From: Phyllobacterium sp. 21LDTY02-6
Lineage (GTDB): Bacteria; Pseudomonadota; Alphaproteobacteria; Rhizobiales; Rhizobiaceae
Direction: 5' to 3'
Length of the DNA stretch: 64,000 nt
Assembly (NCBI RefSeq): GCF_023554255.2
Contig: NZ_JAMJWD020000002.1
Span: forward strand, 489,435 to 553,434
The translations under genes and the position numbers were made by a program. Below the pieces are notes generated by a model. It was not told the origin of the DNA. It did no database searches and saw only the letters and a program-made list of their open reading frames with translations. Below are positions 26,103 to 62,219 of this stretch, in pieces; positions within the stretch are counted from its first letter, which is position 1, and every line of letters starts with the position of its first letter.

Positions 26103-27716
26103 CTATTCGGCAGCGACCGGCGTATGCGGGGCGGCGGCCTTGATGTCGCTGTCCACATGCTTCTCGAACTTGCCGAAGTTCGCGATGAACATGTCGACCA
26201 GCTTCTGTGCCTGCGCATCATAGGCCGACTTGTCGGCCCAGGTGGAACGAGGATCGAGGATCGAGGCTTCGACGCCCGGGACAGCCACGGGAACGGCGAA
26301 ACCGAAATTCGGATCGGTGCGGAACTGTGCATCCTTCAGCGAGCCGTCGAGGGCCGCCGAAAGCAGGGCGCGCGTTGCCTTGATCGGCATGCGCTTGCCC
26401 GTCCCATAGGCGCCGCCGGTCCAGCCGGTATTGACGAGCCAGCAATCCACGCCGTGATCGGCGATGAGCTGGCGCAGCAGATTGCCGTATTCCGAGGGAT
26501 GACGCGGCATGAAGGGCGCGCCGAAGCAGGTGGAGAAGGTCGCTTCCGGTTCGGTGACGCCGCGTTCGGTACCCGCGACCTTGGCGGTATAGCCGGAGAG
26601 GAAGTGGTACATGGCCTGCGCCGGGGTCAGCTTGGCGATCGGAGGCATGACGCCGAACGCATCGGCGGTCAGCATGATGATATTCTTGGGGTGCCCGGCC
26701 TTGCCCGATTTGGATGCATTCGGGATGAAATCGAGCGGATAGGCGCAACGCGTATTCTCGGTCAGCGAGCCATCGTCGAAATCCGGAACGCGGCGTTCGT
26801 CCAGCACGACATTTTCCAGCACCGTGCCGAAACGCTGCGTCGTCGCGAAGATTTCAGGCTCGGCCTCGGCCGAAAGCCGGATCGTCTTGGCATAGCAGCC
26901 GCCCTCGAAATTGAAGACGCCGTGCTCGCCCCAGCCATGCTCGTCATCGCCGATCAAGGTGCGCGACGGATCGGCCGAAAGCGTTGTCTTGCCCGTGCCG
27001 GACAGGCCGAAAAACACCGCCGTATCCCCTTCGGGCCCCTCATTGGCGGAGCAATGCATGGGCATGACGCCCTTGGACGGCAGGATATAGTTGAGCGCCG
27101 TGAACACGGATTTCTTCATCTCGCCGGCATAGGCGGTACCGCCGATCAATACGATCAGCCGCTGCAGATCGACCGCGATGACCGTTTCCGTGCGGGTGCC
27201 ATGGCGGGCCGGATCGGCGCGGAACGATGGCAGATCGATGATCGTCATCTGCGGCACGAATGTTTCGAGGCTGGACCGTTCCGGCCGGATGAGCAGGTTG
27301 CGGATGAACAGCGAATGCCAGGCGAATTCGGTGATCACGCGGGTGTTGAGGCTGTAGGTATCGTCGGCGCCGCCGACCAGATCCTGCACGAAGAGATCCT
27401 TGCCCTTCGCCTGTTCCATGAAATCCGCGTAAAGCAGGTCGAACGCTTCCGGCGACATGGCGGCATTGTTGTCCCACCAGATGGAATTCTCGGTCGAAGC
27501 ATCCCGGACGACGAACTTGTCCTTCGGCGAGCGGCCGGTGTGCTGGCCCGTCCGCGCCACGAGCGCGCCCTGGGCAGTAAGCACTGCCTCGCCGCGACGC
27601 AGCGTCTCTTCGTAAAGCTCGGCGGCTTCCAAATTGTAATAGAAGGCGGAAGCGTCCTTCAGTTTCGAGTTACGGAGCGCGGTTGCCGCGTTGTGGAGGC
27701 CGATTTCTCTGATCAT
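26103..27716 (-). CDS. pckA: Phosphoenolpyruvate carboxykinase (ATP)
   Basis: 537 aa, full length. Converts oxaloacetate to PEP with ATP, the entry to gluconeogenesis during growth on organic acids. The P-loop is [14 protein letters not shown], preceded by the ATP-type signature [16 protein letters not shown]. The substrate region [12 protein letters not shown] is seen as [12 protein letters not shown]. Divergent from chvI over 309 bases that contain matching palindromes. In rhizobia this position beside chvI/chvG is conserved. Confidence 0.99.
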
Positions 27717-28025
27717 CTGTCCGCCATTGTCTGTGAGGGTGCAAAGGGTTCAAAAGTCGTTGTGGCACACTCCATTCCATCCGACAGAGTGTACCACAAT
27801 CAGGTGAAAAGCAGAAAAATTGAACAGTATCAAACGTTTAATCGATTTAAAGATTTTAAATTTTGTTTAAATCGTTTTAGTAAACGGAAATTTCGCCTAC
27901 TATTCCCTTAGCGTAAACGTAAAGGATTCCGGCGCCGGATGAAGTGACAGGTGGACTGTGCCACATTTTGTACCTAATTTGTCCTGCACAAGCAGCGCAG
28001 TTTAACTGCATAAGGAAGGCAGGGC
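27717..28025. promoter_or_regulatory. Divergent pckA-chvI control region with three related half-sites
   Basis: This 309-base gap holds no gene. TTGTGGCACACT (27760-27771) and AGTGTACCACAA (27788-27799) form a 12-base inverted repeat with one mismatch. TGTGCCACA (27957-27965), the exact reverse complement of part of the first arm, lies near chvI. A second inverted repeat, CGATTTAAA (27843-27851) with TTTAAATCG (27866-27874), lies in an AT-rich core. These suggest control of both genes by one or more regulators; none can be named from sequence. Confidence 0.6.
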
Positions 28026-28745
28026 ATGAGGGAAGTACCCGCAATGCAGACGATCGCGCTCGTTGACGACGACCGCAATATTCTGACATCCGTTTCCATC
28101 GCGCTGGAATCGGAAGGCTACCGCGTGGAGACCTATACGGATGGTGCCTCCGCCCTGGACGGGCTGATGGCGCGTCCTCCGAACCTTGCCATCCTCGACA
28201 TCAAGATGCCGCGCATGGACGGAATGGAGCTGCTGCGTCGGCTGCGCCAGAAATCCGATCTGCCGGTCATCTTCCTTACCTCCAAGGATGACGAGATCGA
28301 CGAATTGTTCGGCCTGAAGATGGGCGCCGACGATTTCATCACCAAGCCGTTCTCCCAGCGCCTGCTCGTCGAGCGGGTAAAGGCGGTTCTTCGCCGCGTT
28401 GCCGCCCGCGACGCCACGGCAAAGCCCGGCGGAACGCAAACCAAGTCGCTGGAGCGCGGCCAGCTCGTCATGGACCAGGAACGCCATACCTGCACCTGGA
28501 TGGGCGAACCCGTGACATTGACGGTCACCGAGTTCCTCATTCTGCATTCGCTGGCGCAGCGTCCGGGCGTGGTCAAGAGCCGTGATGCGCTGATGGATGC
28601 GGCCTATGACGAACAGGTCTATGTCGACGATCGCACCATCGACAGCCACATCAAGCGGCTGCGCAAGAAGTTCAAGGTCGTGGATGATGATTTCGACATG
28701 ATCGAGACGCTCTACGGAGTAGGATACCGCTTCCGGGAAACCTGA
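28026..28745 (+). CDS. chvI: Two-component response regulator ChvI
   Basis: 239 aa; an in-frame ATG at 28044 ([14 protein letters not shown]) is a plausible alternative start and matches some relatives better. An OmpR-family regulator: the receiver domain has the acidic pair in VDDD and phosphoacceptor Asp58 (LAILDIKMP); the C-terminal winged helix ends [17 protein letters not shown] and YGVGYRFRE. With ChvG it controls envelope, exopolysaccharide and acid responses in Agrobacterium and Sinorhizobium (BvrR/BvrS in Brucella). 328 bases separate it from chvG. Confidence 0.97.
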
Positions 28746-51936: not shown

Positions 51937-53030
51937 CGGCGATTCGCCACAAGCGAGCGCGGGACCAGCGCATAGAAATCCGCCTCGTGGCGTATGCCGC
52001 CGGCGATCTCGCCGGCCCCATCGCCGGAGCCGGCGAAGAGGTCTCCCCTGGCCGCACCGACGATCGCGGAACCCGTATCCTGCGCGATCATGAGGCGCGA
52101 GAAAGGCTCTCCGCCAAATGCCCGCAAATCGGGAGCATGGATATGGAAGGGTGTGCCGAATGTATGGAGCAGGCGGTCGACCGCGAGCGAACGCCCGGGC
52201 TCCAGCGGCACTTTGGCTGCGGCCACGGGGCCCAGCGATGGGTCGTCCACCGGCGCTTCGCGAAAGAAAATATAGGACCGGTTGTTCCACAGAAGGTCGT
52301 CAACCTGCTCCGGATGAGCCGCGAGCCAGGCGCGGATGGACTGCATGGATATGTCGTCCGGTGCAATTTCGCCCCGATCGATCAATATCCGGCCGATGCC
52401 GGTGAAGCGGTGGCCGGTCTTGGCCGCATAGGTGAACCGCCGCAGGCTGCCATCGGGCATTGTCAGCCTTGCCGCCCCCTGAACATGGATGAAGAAGGCA
52501 TCGACCTTGCTTTCGACGAAGACGAGTTCGAGCCCCCGTCCGGCGAGCGCGCCCTGATCCACCGCCCGGCGGTCGAAATATTCCACCAGCACGCCGTCCG
52601 TGCTGCGGCGGGCGAAGGCGAAATAGGGATCGAGGCCTTGCGGTCGATTGTCGTCATCGACATCGACGAGATCGGCGGGGCGAGCGAGCAGCGGAACGTT
52701 AAACCGTTCCGTCCGAACCGGCGAACCGGCCAGTTCCGGCTCGTAATAACCCGTCACGAAGCCCGGCTGCTCGGCAATGATGCGCGCCGGGACAAACCAT
52801 TTTTCGAAGAAGGCGCGCGCTTCGGCATCGGTGCGGATCGATGTTTCACGTGAATCAGCGAAGGCGGGCTCAAGGGCGGCGAGGCTTATTCCGAGCGCAC
52901 CGGATCTGTAGGGCTTGTTCAATATCTGATGGGCCGAGCGGCGAAACGCCGTGAAGGCCGCAAGTTGCCTGTCCGCGCCCCACCCCGGACACTCGCTGAA
53001 TTCCACCGGGTTGAACACGGGTGAAAGCAT
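51933..53030 (-). CDS. mltA: Membrane-bound lytic murein transglycosylase A, MltA family (no signal peptide seen)
   Basis: 365 aa. The MltA fold is clear: GFVTGYYEPELAGSPVRTER, the insertion HVQGAARLTMPDG, and the C-terminal 3D domain IAQDTGSAIVGAARGDLFAG, whose Asp is the catalytic acid. The N-terminus MLSPVFNPVEFSECPGWG lacks a signal peptide or lipobox, and an in-frame stop lies 21-24 bases upstream, so no longer form exists. Other rhizobial MltA proteins also start this way (from memory). Coupled to smr downstream and 21 bases after the TimA-like gene. Confidence 0.95.
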   Translation of the reverse strand: MLSPVFNPVEFSECPGWGADRQLAAFTAFRRSAHQILNKPYRSGALGISLAALEPAFADSRETSIRTDAEARAFFEKWFVPARIIAEQPGFVTGYYEPELAGSPVRTERFNVPLLARPADLVDVDDDNRPQGLDPYFAFARRSTDGVLVEYFDRRAVDQGALAGRGLELVFVESKVDAFFIHVQGAARLTMPDGSLRRFTYAAKTGHRFTGIGRILIDRGEIAPDDISMQSIRAWLAAHPEQVDDLLWNNRSYIFFREAPVDDPSLGPVAAAKVPLEPGRSLAVDRLLHTFGTPFHIHAPDLRAFGGEPFSRLMIAQDTGSAIVGAARGDLFAGSGDGAGEIAGGIRHEADFYALVPRSLVANRR

Positions 53031-56502: not shown

Positions 56503-57341
56503 TTTGGCCGGCTGCCGCTGTTGGCCATGTCGGCGAGGACGATGTTGCGCAATTCGTCCGTGACGACGGGCCTGATGCCAAACCAATGTTCGAATCCGAA
56601 TACCGCCTGATGCAGGAGCATGCCGAGGCCATCCACCGTCGCCAGCCCATGGGCTCGGGCGGCACGCAGGAACGGCGTTTCAAGCGGAATATAGACGACA
56701 TCGGTAACCAGCGCGTCCTTTCTGGCCGGTGAAATGTCGAGGGTGAAGGCTTCCTTGCCTTCCATGCCGAGCGAGGTCGTATTGACGATCATGTCCGCCT
56801 GGCCGAGGAGCTCGGAAACCGCTGCCCATTCATGTGGCGTGACGGTGGGGCCGAACCTGTCGGCGAGTTCCTGCGCGCGCGACAATGTCCTGTTGGCCAC
56901 ATGGATTTCCGAGAATCCCCGCTGTTTCAGACCGTAGATGACGGCACGGCAGGCGCCGCCGGCACCGAGAATGAGCGCGGATTCTCGTTTGTCCCATCCG
57001 GGCTGCGATGCGTCCAGATTGGCGAGAAAGCCAAAAGCATCGGTATTTCCGCCGACAAGTTGGCCGTTCTCGAACCATAATGTGTTCACGGCACCGATTT
57101 CCTCCGCGGCGCCGTCACGCTTTTCGCACAGGTCGAATGCCCTTTCCTTATGGGGAAGTGTGACATTGCCGCCGATGTAGCCATTCGGTTCCAGGCTGGC
57201 GAGAAAATCGGCAAAGCCTTCCGGCGCGACTTCAATCGCCTGATAGCTGCCATCTATGCCATGCTGCTTCAGCCAATAGCCGTGGATGATTGGAGAACGG
57301 GAATGCCGGATCGGAAATCCGGTGACGAAAGCCTTAACCAT
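56499..57341 (-). CDS. aroE: Shikimate dehydrogenase (NADP+)
   Basis: 280 aa from the ATG at 57341, with AGGAG six bases upstream; it overlaps the maf stop by 8 bases. Fourth shikimate-pathway step. Shikimate-binding [16 protein letters not shown] and [11 protein letters not shown] (catalytic Lys), Asp in NTDAFGF, and NADP loop [13 protein letters not shown] and [12 protein letters not shown] are visible. Confidence 0.98.
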
Positions 57342-57927
57342 CAATGGCTCCTAGTTCGCGCAATTCAGCAAGCAACGGCAGCAAGGGAAGACCGACGATG
57401 GTGAAATAGTCACCCTCGACGCTCTTGAACAATTGAACACCTTCCCCCTCATACTGATAGGCGCCGACGCTTTGAAGTGCTATTTCGCCGACGCGGGAGA
57501 GATGTCTGCCGATAAATCCCGGATCAAGTTCCCTCAGCGTCATCCGCGCCACCGCGACGTGCCGCCACAAGGTCTGGCCGTCTCGGGCTATGACCACCGC
57601 GCTGTTCAGGTGATGCGTCTTTCCGGACAGTTTCAGCAATTGAAGCCGGGCCGCCTCCATGTCGGCAGGCTTGTGCAGTACCTCGTCATCCAGCGAAAGG
57701 GTCTGGTCGGAACCGATGACCAATGCGCCGGGATTGCTTTCGCTGACATCGAGTGCCTTCGCTTCCGCCAGAACAAGGGCGACATCTTCCGGCGATGCAC
57801 CACTGTCATAAAGCGGCGCCTCGACGGCCCTCTCATCGATATTTGCCGATCGCCCGGTGAATTCGACACCGGCATTCTTGAGGAGAAGCGCGCGAAAAGG
57901 GCTTTTCGACGCCAAGATGATAGCCAT
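57334..57927 (-). CDS. maf: Maf-family nucleotide pyrophosphatase
   Basis: 197 aa from the ATG at 57927 ([20 protein letters not shown]). Hydrolyses non-canonical or modified NTPs. The SxxR signature and the [16 protein letters not shown] and [14 protein letters not shown]-like ([16 protein letters not shown]) motifs are visible. Five bases after ppsR and coupled to aroE. Confidence 0.96.
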
Positions 57928-57932
57928 TGTTT

Positions 57933-58766
57933 CTATCCCTGTTGCGATGCCGCCTGGGTTCGGAGTGCGAGAACAGCGGCAGCTGTTTCTTCTATCGACC
58001 GACGGGAAACGTCGATCGTCGGCCAATTGTGCCGGTGGCAGATCTGCCTCGCATAGGCGAGTTCTTCGATGATATTCGCCCTGTCGAGATAGCTATCGGC
58101 ATCAAATCCCTGCGTTGCGCCTAAAATACGGTGCTGGCGAACCTGCGATATCCGTTCCGCCGACGCCACGAGTCCCACGATCAGCGGCCTTTTTGCCGAT
58201 ATGATGGCTTCAGGCATCGGAACGCCGATGACGATCGGCACATTGACGGTCTTCACCCCGCGATTGGCGAGATAGATGCTCGTCGGCGTCTTGGACGTGC
58301 GGGAAATGCCGATCAGGATGACGTCCGCTTCCTCGATATCCGGCGGCAATTGGCCGTCATCATGCTCCATCGTGAAATTGAGCGCATCGATGCGGCGGAA
58401 ATATTCGGCGTTGAGCACATGTTGGGCGCCCACGCGCCGGCCGGCCGGGGTTCCGAGATAGGATTGAAAGGTGGCAAGCACGGGCTCGAGCACGGACACG
58501 CAGGGAACGCCGAGCTGGCTGCAATTCTCGTCGATCAATGCGGCCAGGCGCTGATCCACGATCGTGTAGAGTACGATTCCCGGCTCCGCATCGATGTTCT
58601 CCAGGACTTTCCTGATCTGCTTCTCGGTGCGGATGAGGGGGTAAATATGTTCGATCGCCCGCGCATGCGCATATTGCGCCGCGGCTGCCCTCCCCGCCGC
58701 AATGAGAGTCTCACCCGTGGCGTCAGAAATCATGTGAAGATGGAAGTAGCTGATCGCCTTGGTCAC
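57933..58766 (-). CDS. ppsR: PEP synthase / pyruvate phosphate dikinase regulatory protein
   Basis: 277 aa from a GTG at 58766, giving [20 protein letters not shown], the family N-terminus; AGGAG is 12 bases upstream. A DUF299 bifunctional ADP-dependent kinase and Pi-dependent pyrophosphorylase that switches PPDK or PEP synthase. The nucleotide loop is [15 protein letters not shown]. It is the first minus-strand gene left of the candidate origin, as in Caulobacter and rhizobia. Confidence 0.95.
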
Positions 58767-59176
58767 AGAATTCTTTTGCTCCTGTTGAGAGCTGTGGAGA
58801 AAAGTCGGGATAATCCCCAAGTGATGGCAGCCATGTGGATTGTTGGCAAGTCATCCACAATGACCGCTGCTGTGGAACCATTGCCGGGGTCCAATGAACT
58901 ATGTGGATAGTTGCGACTTATCGTCTGCCATTCACAACTGATCCCCAGTATCGTCCACATGGTCTATTGCAGCATATCATTGTTTTTATTTGTTTTTATG
59001 CCAATATCAACAAAGCATGCGTTTGCATCCTGCTTTTATCCCGTCACGATGGCAAATCGGATGGGTGTGGGAAAATCGCGGCAATGTGTTAATTCCCACA
59101 ACTAACAGACTCTAAGAATCAGAAAATCCGAAATAGATCTAAATTTCTTTTTTAAGAGAAGGACGGGGAGAGGGAA
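58767..59176. other. oriC: Candidate chromosomal replication origin (oriC)
   Basis: The 410-base gap between divergent ppsR and hemE holds no gene. DnaA-box-like sites (consensus TTATCCACA or TGTGGATAA) with one mismatch: TGTGGAGAA 58793-58801, TCATCCACA 58851-58859, TGTGGATAG 58902-58910. With two: TGTGGATTG 58834-58842, TCGTCCACA 58951-58959, TGTGGGAAA 59066-59074. An AT-rich stretch with runs of T lies at about 58972-59000, a good unwinding element. GANTC methylation sites lie at 59108-59112 and 59116-59120. Position next to hemE matches the Caulobacter origin and rhizobial origins. I saw no TTAA-N7-TTAA CtrA site. Not proven without skew or marker-frequency data. Confidence 0.8.
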
Positions 59177-60199
59177 ATGGTCCGGAAAGTGATGCAAGTC
59201 CTTAAGGGCGAAACCGTCTATCCCCCGCCCATCTGGATGATGAGGCAGGCAGGAAGATACCTCCCCGAATACAGGGAGGTGAGAAAGACGGCCGGAAGTT
59301 TCCTCGACCTTTGCTATTCTCCCGATCTTGCAGTCGAGGTTACCCTGCAGCCGATACGTCGCTTCGGCTTCGACGCAGCCATCCTCTTTTCGGATATATT
59401 GGTGGTTCCGCATGCGCTCGGTCGCGACCTGAGATTCGAGGAAGGCCGTGGTCCACTGATGACGCCGATCGACACGGACGGCATATTCTGGCTCGAAGCC
59501 AAGGGCGCAGCTGATCGGCTGGAGCCGGTCTACGAGACGGTCCGGCTGCTGCGCCAGCAACTGCCTGCGGAAACCACGCTGCTCGGCTTCTGCGGGGCGC
59601 CCTGGACCGTTGCGACCTATATGATCGCCGGTCATGGAACGCCCGACCAGGCGCCAGCACGCCTGTTCGCCTATCGTCATCCGGACGTGTTCGAAAAGCT
59701 GCTGCAGGTGATCGTGGAAGTTTCGGCCGAATATCTGATCCGGCAGATCGATGCCGGTGCCGATGCGGTCCAGATATTCGATTCATGGTCGGGTGTGCTC
59801 GACGAGGATTGTTTCGAGAGATATTGCGTCAAACCCGTTGCCGATATCGTCGCAAGGGTGCGGAAGTCGCATCCGGAGGTGCCGATCATCGGCTTTCCCA
59901 AGGGTGCGGGCATGCTCTACACGGATTATAGGCAGCGAACCGGAGTGACCGCGCTGGGGCTCGACTGGTCGGTGCCGCTTTCCTTTGCATCCAAACTGCA
60001 GGCCGGCGGAACCGTGCAGGGCAATCTCGACCCATTGCGCGTCGTTGCCGGGGGGCAGGCGCTCGATGAAGGTGTCGATCGGATCATGTCGGCGCTCGGC
60101 AACGGTCCGCTCATCTTCAATCTCGGACATGGTATAACGCCGGACGCACCGCTGGCCCATGTGGAGCAATTGGTGAACCGCGTTCGCCAGGCGCGTTGA
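59177..60199 (+). CDS. hemE: Uroporphyrinogen decarboxylase
   Basis: 340 aa, with GGGGAGAGG before the ATG. Removes four carboxyls from uroporphyrinogen III to give coproporphyrinogen. The signature [17 protein letters not shown] and the [16 protein letters not shown] motif are present. First plus-strand gene right of the origin, with hemJ 24 bases behind. Confidence 0.98.
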
Positions 60200-60223
60200 G
60201 ATAGTCACAAGGGAGAGAAGACG

Positions 60224-60757
60224 ATGGCTGATGAAGAGAAAAGAGATGATGCGAAGGTGCCTGTCCTGCCGCGGATCATCGTCGCAGCGGTTGCGGTCAT
60301 TGCGATCATCTTCGTCTTTCTCTATCCGGATCAGTCATATCTATGGGTGAAGGCGCTGCATGTGGTCGCCGTCATTTCATGGATGGCCGGCATGCTCTAT
60401 CTGCCGCGGCTTTTCGTCTATCATTGCGCGGCGGAGCCCGGATCGGCCCAATCTGAAACCTTCAAGGTGATGGAGAACAGGCTGCTGAAGGCCATTGTCA
60501 ATCCGGCCATGGGCGTGACATGGCTGGCGGGCCTCTGGCTGGCCTGGCATACCGCCGCCTATCAGGATGGCTGGTTCCATGTGAAGTTCCTCGCGGTCCT
60601 GCTTCTGTCGGGACTGCACGGATTTTTCACCAAGTCGGTGCGCCTGTTCGCTGCCGACAAAAACGAGAAATCGCAGCGCTTCTGGCGGATGATGAACGAG
60701 GTGCCGGCATTGCTCATGGTCGTCATCGTCATCATGGTCATCATTAGGCCATTTTGA
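60224..60757 (+). CDS. hemJ: Protoporphyrinogen IX oxidase HemJ
   Basis: 177 aa. Four hydrophobic helices: residues about 17-35, 43-63, 88-110 and 118-140, with a C-terminal one at 160-177. HemJ is the oxygen-independent, cofactor-poor enzyme of many alphas. Conserved VKALHVVAVISWMAGMLYLPRL (His of KALH) and FLAVLLLSGLHGFF are present. Second heme gene beside hemE. Confidence 0.95.
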   Translation: MADEEKRDDAKVPVLPRIIVAAVAVIAIIFVFLYPDQSYLWVKALHVVAVISWMAGMLYLPRLFVYHCAAEPGSAQSETFKVMENRLLKAIVNPAMGVTWLAGLWLAWHTAAYQDGWFHVKFLAVLLLSGLHGFFTKSVRLFAADKNEKSQRFWRMMNEVPALLMVVIVIMVIIRPF

Positions 60758-60870
60758 TTCATTACTAATATTGCATCGTCTATCAAATCCAGTCATGAAA
60801 TCCCTTGCCCTCCTATTCATGATTGGTTAGATAGGGCCTCTCCTTACGGAAATACCGCCGTGGTAATATC

Positions 60871-60888
60871 GCCATTCGCCCGAATGGC
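60871..60888. repeat. Palindrome in the rho leader
   Basis: GCCATTCG-CC-CGAATGGC is a perfect 8-bp arm palindrome, 66 bases before the rho ATG. The neighbouring TACC-GCCG-TGGTA (about 60853-60865) is a second hairpin. Neither is followed by a T-run. They could shape a rho leader; E. coli rho is autoregulated by attenuation in its leader. Confidence 0.45.
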
Positions 60889-60953
60889 ACCGCATTCAGG
60901 CATTGTCATTTCCCTCCCCCAATCAATCTCATAGAAATCAGAGTTCCGCACAC

Positions 60954-62219
60954 ATGCAGGAAATGAAACTACAAGAACTAAAAAACAAGACAGCGGTGGA
61001 CCTTCTGGCGTTCGCCGAATCGCTGGAGGTGGAGAACGCCAGCGTGATGCGCAAACAGGAACTGATGTTTGCGATACTCAAGAAACTGGCCTCGCAAGAG
61101 GTCGAAATCATCGGCGAAGGCGTGGTCGAGATTCTGCAGGATGGCTTTGGCTTCATGCGTTCCGCCAATGCAAACTATCTCCCTGGCCCCGATGACATCT
61201 ATATTTCTCCCTCGCAGATCCGGCGTTTTTCGCTGAAGACCGGCGATACGGTCGAAGGCCCCATTCGCGGCCCCAAGGAAGGCGAACGCTATTTCGCACT
61301 ACTGAAGGTCAATACGGTCAATTTCGAAGACCCTGAAAAGATCCGCCACAAGATCCATTTCGACAATCTTACGCCGCTCTATCCGAACGAGCGTTTCAAG
61401 ATGGAGCTGGAAAACCCGACGACCAAGGACCTTTCGGCCCGCGTCATCGATCTTGTCGCTCCTCTGGGCAAAGGCCAGCGCGGTCTGATCGTCGCCCCGC
61501 CACGCACGGGTAAGACCGTGTTGCTCCAGAATATCGCCCATTCCATCACCGCCAATCATCCGGAATGCTACCTCATCGTCCTCCTGATCGACGAACGGCC
61601 GGAAGAAGTGACGGACATGCAGCGTTCGGTGAAGGGCGAGGTTGTCTCCTCCACCTTCGACGAGCCTGCCTCTCGCCACGTGCAAGTGGCCGAAATGGTG
61701 ATCGAGAAGGCGAAGCGCCTGGTCGAGCATGGCCGCGACGTGGTTATCCTCCTCGATTCGATCACGCGCCTTGGCCGCGCCTACAACACGGTCGTTCCTT
61801 CATCGGGCAAGGTATTGACGGGTGGTGTCGACGCCAATGCGCTGCAGCGCCCCAAGCGCTTCTTCGGCGCAGCGCGCAATATCGAGGAAGGCGGCTCGCT
61901 CACCATCATCGCAACGGCGCTGATCGATACCGGCAGCCGCATGGACGAAGTGATCTTCGAAGAATTCAAGGGTACCGGCAATTCGGAAATCGTGCTCGAC
62001 CGCAAGGTTGCGGACAAGCGTATCTTCCCGGCAATGGATATTCTCAAATCCGGCACGCGCAAGGAAGACCTGCTCGTTCCGCGCCAGGACCTGCAGAAGA
62101 TTTTCGTCTTGCGCCGTATTCTTGCGCCGATGGGCACGACGGACGCCATCGAGTTCCTCATCGACAAGCTCAAGCAGACGAAGACCAATGGCGAATTCTT
62201 CGACTCGATGAATACCTAG
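60954..62219 (+). CDS. rho: Transcription termination factor Rho
   Basis: 421 aa from the ATG at 60954 ([20 protein letters not shown]), the rhizobial length; a TTG at 60903 is less likely. Hexameric RNA helicase. Order: N-terminal helical domain, RNA-binding OB fold ([20 protein letters not shown]), ATPase with Walker A APPRTGKT, and the secondary RNA site. The 3' end overlaps the convergent YyaL-type gene by four bases. Confidence 0.99.

Follow-up and report, generated by a model that had tools for sequence, protein, structure and literature searches.

The ppsR–hemE gap of a Phyllobacterium genome as a very probable hemE-type chromosome origin with conserved CcrM sites in its presumed opening module

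The gap between ppsR and hemE in a Phyllobacterium draft genome is very probably oriC, the single, DnaA-dependent origin of the main chromosome, working through the initiation pathway proposed below. The gap contains a cluster of DnaA boxes, coincides with a switch in GC skew, lies amid a cluster of parS sites and is conserved within the genus, and a short module at its hemE-proximal end is conserved beyond it. As an origin it is ordinary, and can be assigned with high confidence to the known hemE type as one more case of that class. The part that merits the attention of specialists is the set of conserved CcrM methylation sites in the module at which the duplex presumably opens. The window, that is the whole stretch of 64,000 nucleotides that was analysed, corresponds to C5:489435–553434, on one of the 12 contigs of a 4.6-Mb draft genome. 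The nearest named relatives of its PpsR protein come from Phyllobacterium species (85–88% identity), and the gap offers an exact place for experiments in this genus. Features are listed in Table 1.

Table 1. Features of the ppsR–hemE gap and its surroundings, in window coordinates unless a contig position (C5) is given.
Feature	Position	Strand	Evidence
parS-like palindrome, 1 mismatch	52842..52857 (C5:542276-542291)		genome-wide parS scan
Three further parS sites past the window end	C5:555053, 555097, 557096		genome-wide parS scan
ppsR (COG1806/DUF299), left boundary gene	57933..58766	-	NCBIfam NF003742 above cut-off
Very probable oriC, ppsR–hemE gap, 410 bases	58767..59176		DnaA-box cluster, skew switch, parS on both sides, kept length
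DnaA box TTCTCCACA, 1 mismatch	58793..58801	-	mismatch scan
Two overlapping 2-mismatch boxes, TTATCCCGA (-) and TAATCCCCA (+)	58805..58819		mismatch scan
37-nt block with inverted repeat ATGGCAGCCAT (58824-58834) and boxes CAATCCACA, TCATCCACA	58823..58859		genus alignment
Box CAATCCACA	58834-58842	-	mismatch scan; inside 37-nt block
Box TCATCCACA, 1 mismatch	58851-58859	+	mismatch scan; same place in 20/20 genus gaps
DnaA box CTATCCACA, 1 mismatch	58902..58910	-	mismatch scan
Tandem 2-mismatch boxes TGATCCCCA (58939-58947) and TCGTCCACA (58951-58959)	58939..58959	+	mismatch scan
Central AT-rich tract with tandem TTGTTTTTAT repeats; alternative unwinding site	58960..59012		scan, repeat check
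Box TTTCCCACA, 2 mismatches	59066..59074	-	mismatch scan
Degenerate tandem box pair, TAATTCCCA (59090-59098) and CAACTAACA (59099-59107)	59090..59107	+	anchored alignment, authors' reading
GACTC spacer separating the box pair from the triplets; CcrM (GANTC) site	59108..59112		family gaps
Four in-register DnaA-trio-like triplets AAG AAT CAG AAA	59114..59125	+	family alignment
Second GANTC (GAATC) inside triplets	59116-59120		motif scan
hemE, right boundary gene	59177..60199	+	NCBIfam TIGR01464

The hemE-type alphaproteobacterial oriC is recognised by its position between hemE and COG1806 (ppsR), a DnaA-box cluster, a GC-skew switch at the site with the opposite switch at the terminus, and a nearby parS cluster. 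The gap occupies this position, as originally predicted from the sequence, and the Caulobacter and Rickettsia origins are reported to sit between hemE and COG1806 (PMC1914354), in line with the accompanying statement that Caulobacter Cori lies beside hemE. Across a wider set from the order and class, ppsR was adjacent in 78 of the 86 loci with hemE. The chromosomal oriC of Sinorhizobium meliloti is said to lie beside hemE in the same setting, reportedly according to Sibley et al. in 2006. The S. meliloti origin has reportedly been tested for autonomous replication and DnaA binding. The PpsR search took in 19 genomes of the same genus; gap length is kept at 407–416 nt in all 20 genus gaps, and 117 of the 422 columns in their alignment are invariant. 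A predicted switch from minus-strand to plus-strand genes is real at ppsR and hemE themselves; further out, each side of the gap carries genes in both orientations. The dnaA gene lies 500 kb from the gap. The C-terminal domain of its product aligned with domain IV of Escherichia coli DnaA (1j1v) with an E value of 4e-23, and in the alignment with 8btg the residues GGRDHTTV are identical.

Counting sites by their mismatches to the DnaA-box consensus TTATCCACA gave three one-mismatch and seven two-mismatch boxes in the gap, far above chance, where three and at least three had been predicted. These are all three of the sites with up to one mismatch in the 64-kb window, and 10 of the 98 with up to two. 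In 2000 Markov sequences built on the dinucleotide frequencies of the gap, the corresponding means were 0.13 and 1.6 sites, and none of the 2000 reached the observed counts. Similarly, 340 kb of sequence from the same genome, made up of 60 kb of the window and 14 sampled stretches and counting an overlap of about 10 kb twice, contained 23 one-mismatch boxes, and pairs less than 150 nt apart occurred only in the gap. The mismatch scan found no perfect box in the gap, which counts against the origin reading. Closer matches, several of them perfect, are present in relatives at gap positions 171 and 181–183, which correspond to the tandem boxes TGATCCCCA and TCGTCCACA.

Two of the boxes fall in a 37-nt block that is nearly fixed in the genus, with 0–4 differences in each of the 20 gaps; its inverted repeat ATGGCAGCCAT is intact in 18 of them. 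An unknown protein that binds the origin may have its site in this block. A general role of ATGGCAGCCAT in origins was rejected, the repeat being confined to the genus and not seen in the gaps read from other genera.

GC skew was negative in 11 of 12 sampled 20-kb stretches that lie to the left of the window or within it as far as the gap, and positive in all five to the right of the gap. The contig itself was sampled around the gap only; both switches were observed in G012, a complete Phyllobacterium chromosome of 3,876,158 bases from which 40 stretches were sampled. In G012, 19 of 19 stretches were negative on one side and 19 of 21 positive on the other. The sign changes from the stretch that begins at 540 kb to the one that begins at 560 kb, with the gap at about 558 kb, and changes back between 2.5 and 2.6 Mb, roughly half a chromosome from the gap. 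The original prediction had named a skew minimum elsewhere as evidence that would speak against it; as far as this comparison was run, on sampled stretches, the prediction withstood it, since the sign switches at the gap both on the contig and in G012. In G012 the cumulative skew reaches its local minimum at 559126, roughly 1 kb from the gap. The genome under study has its local minimum at window coordinate 64747, which is 5.6 kb right of the gap, and this displacement counts against the origin reading.

All four parS sites of the genome lie 6–9 kb from the gap, at −5.9, +6.4, +6.5 and +8.5 kb. The right-hand sites are at or around mnmG, which is followed by rsmG, a ParA-type gene and a ParB gene. 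Four parS sites per genome were found in each of the 20 genus genomes, and they are at most 11 kb from ppsR in 17 of the 18 genomes for which all places are listed; the exception, G014, has two sites on another contig. DnaA boxes are also able to regulate genes, and the gap could in principle be a mere divergent promoter region where DnaA controls the transcription of ppsR and hemE, with the origin elsewhere. The coincidence of the skew switch and the parS cluster at the gap, together with the origin function of the same setting in Caulobacter and Rickettsia, makes this extremely improbable.

A Caulobacter-type, CtrA-controlled origin carries TTAA-N7-TTAA sites. The motif scan found no such site in the gap, in agreement with the original prediction, and none in any of the 20 genus gaps. 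The gap resembles Cori of Caulobacter crescentus in its boundary genes, its DnaA boxes and an AT-rich region, and Cori is likewise reported to contain GANTC motifs (PMC1914354, PMC8959179, PMC3973325). Cori differs in its five CtrA sites and in the ncRNA gene ccnA. An Rfam search of 57000–62000 at E up to 1 returned no match, in a database that may not include CcnA. The S. meliloti oriC is likewise described without CtrA sites nearby, and how initiation is limited or timed in their absence is stated to be unclear (PMC11500502).

The hemE-proximal module (59090–59125) is the best conserved part of the gap outside the 37-nt block. Over 13 genera of the family its layout is two box-like nonamers, GA[C/G]TC, one W and four central-A triplets, and none of the 13 genera lacks the middle A in any of the four triplets. 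The second module box is recognisable in relatives as TTATCAACA (L094), ATACCCACA (L032), CTATTCACA (L039) and TTATCCACA (L254). When the family gaps are aligned on the spacer, the invariant columns after it are 7, 9, 10, 13 and 16, in an alignment that is partly circular in that its anchoring presupposes C[A/C]GA[C/G]TC. A genome-wide search for the module pattern matched 127 of 151 family genomes (92 of 106 genera), with places not tied individually to hemE, and the reversed pattern matched 18 genomes in the same search. The pattern occurs once in 344 kb of sequence from the genome under study.

The gap comparison used 124 of 130 gaps, 109 of them distinct; L042, L045, L051, L080, L086 and L101 were dropped for want of a hemE match in the DNA examined. 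Relatives L072–L135 were assigned to the family by their names and a PpsR identity of 75% or more rather than by a tree. A PpsR match was absent in eight of 59 relatives, five of which belong to the family. Three of these five keep the module by pattern and L253 keeps it by eye, while L256 is without it. L256 (G025) is a family member with a 1.1-Mb genome that has hemE but no PpsR match, and neither boxes nor a module precede the gene; the origin of this genome may have moved. In the Mesorhizobium gaps L110, L113, L114, L122 and L131 (496–751 nt), extra DNA separates the module from hemE, which shows that the two can be moved apart.

Tandem boxes, a short spacer and in-register central-A triplets, in the same order, liken the module to the Bacillus subtilis BUS, with its DnaA-box#6/7 and DnaA-trios (PMC8287927, PMC6669920). 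In B. subtilis, the DnaA-trios are reported to act in a 3-nt register in vitro, in that opening is slowed by deleting 1 nt but not by deleting 3 nt (PMC6669920). The strict rule for a BUS describes a GC-rich spacer of about 4 nt (PMC8287927). The Phyllobacterium module differs in that its boxes are too degenerate for the published rule and its spacer is a CcrM site. Applied here as a box with at most two mismatches, a spacer of 0–16, and at least three NAN triplets on the same strand, the strict rule found no BUS on the strand of the window that reads towards hemE, the second box of the module having five mismatches. Judged by homology, an in-register central A over at least three triplets is found in all 13 family genera in the spacer-anchored comparison.

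The strict rule was also applied to one locus per genus (43 for the order, 25 for the class), leaving out non-adjacent loci, same-genus repeats and L229. Of the 43 order genera, 20 had a hemE-ward BUS by this rule and 14 had one on the opposite strand; for the 25 families from other orders of the class, the figures were 16 and four. The hemE-ward BUS lay at most 125 nt from hemE in 12 of those 20 order genera and 10 of those 16 other families. In other alphaproteobacterial orders (L224, L230, L236, L240 and others), boxes upstream of hemE are followed by triplet runs of the CAC, TAC or CTA type, such as ATCCACTACTACTACATT. On the other strand of the window the rule does identify a BUS, which by the authors' reading is a six-triplet run beside ppsR: on the minus strand of 58767–58801, box TTCTCCACA leads into six NAN triplets that keep the register, and this further BUS-like arrangement is weaker in the other genus gaps looked at.

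It is proposed, by analogy with known origin families, that DnaA would bind the box cluster in the ppsR-side half and the middle of the gap, and that its assembly would reach, or be nucleated at, the weak tandem boxes, GACTC and triplets of the hemE-proximal module. A DnaA filament would then form on one strand at the triplets, and the duplex would open in the AT-rich tract there. Helicase loading would follow, with two forks moving outwards, and ParB bound at the nearby parS sites would segregate the new origins.

Strand opening at the hemE-proximal module is the moderately likely reading, with the central AT-rich tract as its alternative. The T-run tract noted in the original prediction is real and consists of two perfect 10-bp tandem repeats (58980–58999), but as an unwinding site it is less well supported than the module: no other part of the genus alignment is conserved so poorly. 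As a conserved unwinding element it was rejected on this account. Within the window, the central and hemE-proximal tracts are about equally unstable (−1.12 vs −1.11 kcal/mol per step), and the central one is the less stable of the two in 14 of the 20 genus gaps. The least stable 40 nt coincide with the hemE-proximal tract in 11 of 13 family genera, but in only six of 20 Phyllobacterium gaps, which counts against opening at the module.

Unwinding elements may also vary in sequence, and it is conceivable, if rather unlikely, that the gap is the origin but opens at the T-run tract beside the tandem boxes of 58939–58959, with the module serving as the hemE promoter and its GANTC sites serving GcrA/CcrM-dependent transcription. 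The genome does encode one GcrA and one CcrM-like enzyme, whose best solved relative is 6pbd (CcrMI), and wherever the module is found next to hemE it always adjoins that gene. A promoter accords poorly with invariant columns that keep a 3-nt register (7, 10, 13 and 16 after the spacer start, plus 9), with the resemblance of L034, L035, L039 and L095, by eye, to whole-triplet insertions, and with the perfect TTATCCACA that L254 carries directly before GAGTC. Furthermore, L256 has hemE without a module upstream. A consensus scan for sigma-70-like promoters found two sites against 0.8 expected, none of them over the module.

At the probable first-opening spot of the duplex there are cell-cycle methylation sites, which relatives have retained. 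The paired GANTC sites of the original prediction were located at 59108 and 59116. All 95 distinct family gaps have either GACTC (74) or GAGTC (21) as the spacer, a count that is partly circular in presupposing the triplets and at least three of the five letters of GACTC, and GAATC occurs inside the triplets in 84 of the 95. A count free of the circularity of spacer anchoring was obtained by comparing GANTC with shuffles in a strip 20–120 nt before hemE. In the family the strip holds 28 sites vs 7.0 in shuffles (sd 2.6), a 4-fold excess, and in 30 other Rhizobiales genera it holds 49 vs 18.6 (sd 4.2), a 2.6-fold excess. The 18 sites in other orders are within the shuffle range (11.2, sd 3.2). 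Counts in the rest of the gap are near expectation in the family (21 vs 16.6), in other Rhizobiales (49 vs 43.6) and in other orders (43 vs 35.9). For the control motif AGNCT the family likewise shows a slight preference for the strip (15 against 13), which is explained by the AGACT within CAGACTC.

The spacer may instead have been kept as GA[C/G]TC because a box–triplet spacer must be short and GC-bearing, irrespective of CcrM methylation, a reading that is doubtful but deserves consideration. The free position is C or G in all 95 distinct family gaps and in 124 of the 134 module-pattern matches listed, and a GC-rich spacer of such length is described for BUS (PMC8287927). Such a constraint does not account for the G, A, T and C that flank the free position, all of which are kept while C and G alternate, nor for the strip excess in the 30 other Rhizobiales genera, where GANTC occurs with all four middle bases and at other positions. 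A literature search, judged partly by titles and the opening lines of abstracts, found no report joining GANTC with a DnaA-trio, which is not proof that the association is unpublished.

In E. coli oriC, GATC sites stand at the start of the 13-mers. A methylation-gated origin of the Dam/SeqA kind has methylase sites enriched in its opening region and the methylase encoded in the genome; GANTC is enriched in the presumed opening region here and a CcrM-like enzyme is encoded. Adenine-methylation sites at the origin are shared with E. coli oriC under Dam/SeqA (PMC10073500). The two differ in methylase and site, and loss of CcrM is reported not to disturb initiation in Caulobacter, where cells without ccrM show a normal DNA-content profile (PMC3973325).

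Under a gating mechanism, the opening module of the Rhizobiales, whose origins lack CtrA sites, would carry one CcrM site as its box–triplet spacer and often a second in the triplets, and would be hemimethylated after firing until CcrM acts late in the cycle. The hemimethylated state would weaken DnaA filament formation or opening, and the origin would in this way read its own replication history. The sites would then be what GATC is to the E. coli unwinding element, evolved separately in the alphaproteobacteria, but such gating is judged improbable. Overproduction of CcrM is stated to give extra chromosomes in Caulobacter (PMC3973325), and a review describes CcrM as essential in the other alphaproteobacteria studied (PMC6090056); both were counted in favour of gating. 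In Agrobacterium tumefaciens, depletion or overproduction of CcrM is reported to have no significant effect on ori1 foci, whereas ori2 is affected (PMC11514494). The Caulobacter and Agrobacterium experiments argue against a strong effect of methylation on firing. GANTC-rich repABC origins are noted in the same review (PMC6090056), so GANTC at replication origins is not new as such. With a CcrM site conserved where opening presumably begins, one possible answer to the question of how initiation is limited and timed in the Rhizobiales can be tested by single-base changes.

The single-strand DNA fold of the gap has a z of −2.1. The least stable 40-nt stretches of the window are elsewhere, at 27829–27886, between a minus-strand ORF (26103–27716) taken to be pckA and a plus-strand ORF (28026–28745) that presumably encodes a ChvI-like response regulator. 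Among the relatives, L091 (JAHREI010000001.1) is titled Bacillus subtilis strain SK6B4, and its ppsR–hemE gap is almost the same as that of Pseudochrobactrum (L092); the record is probably mislabelled or contaminated.
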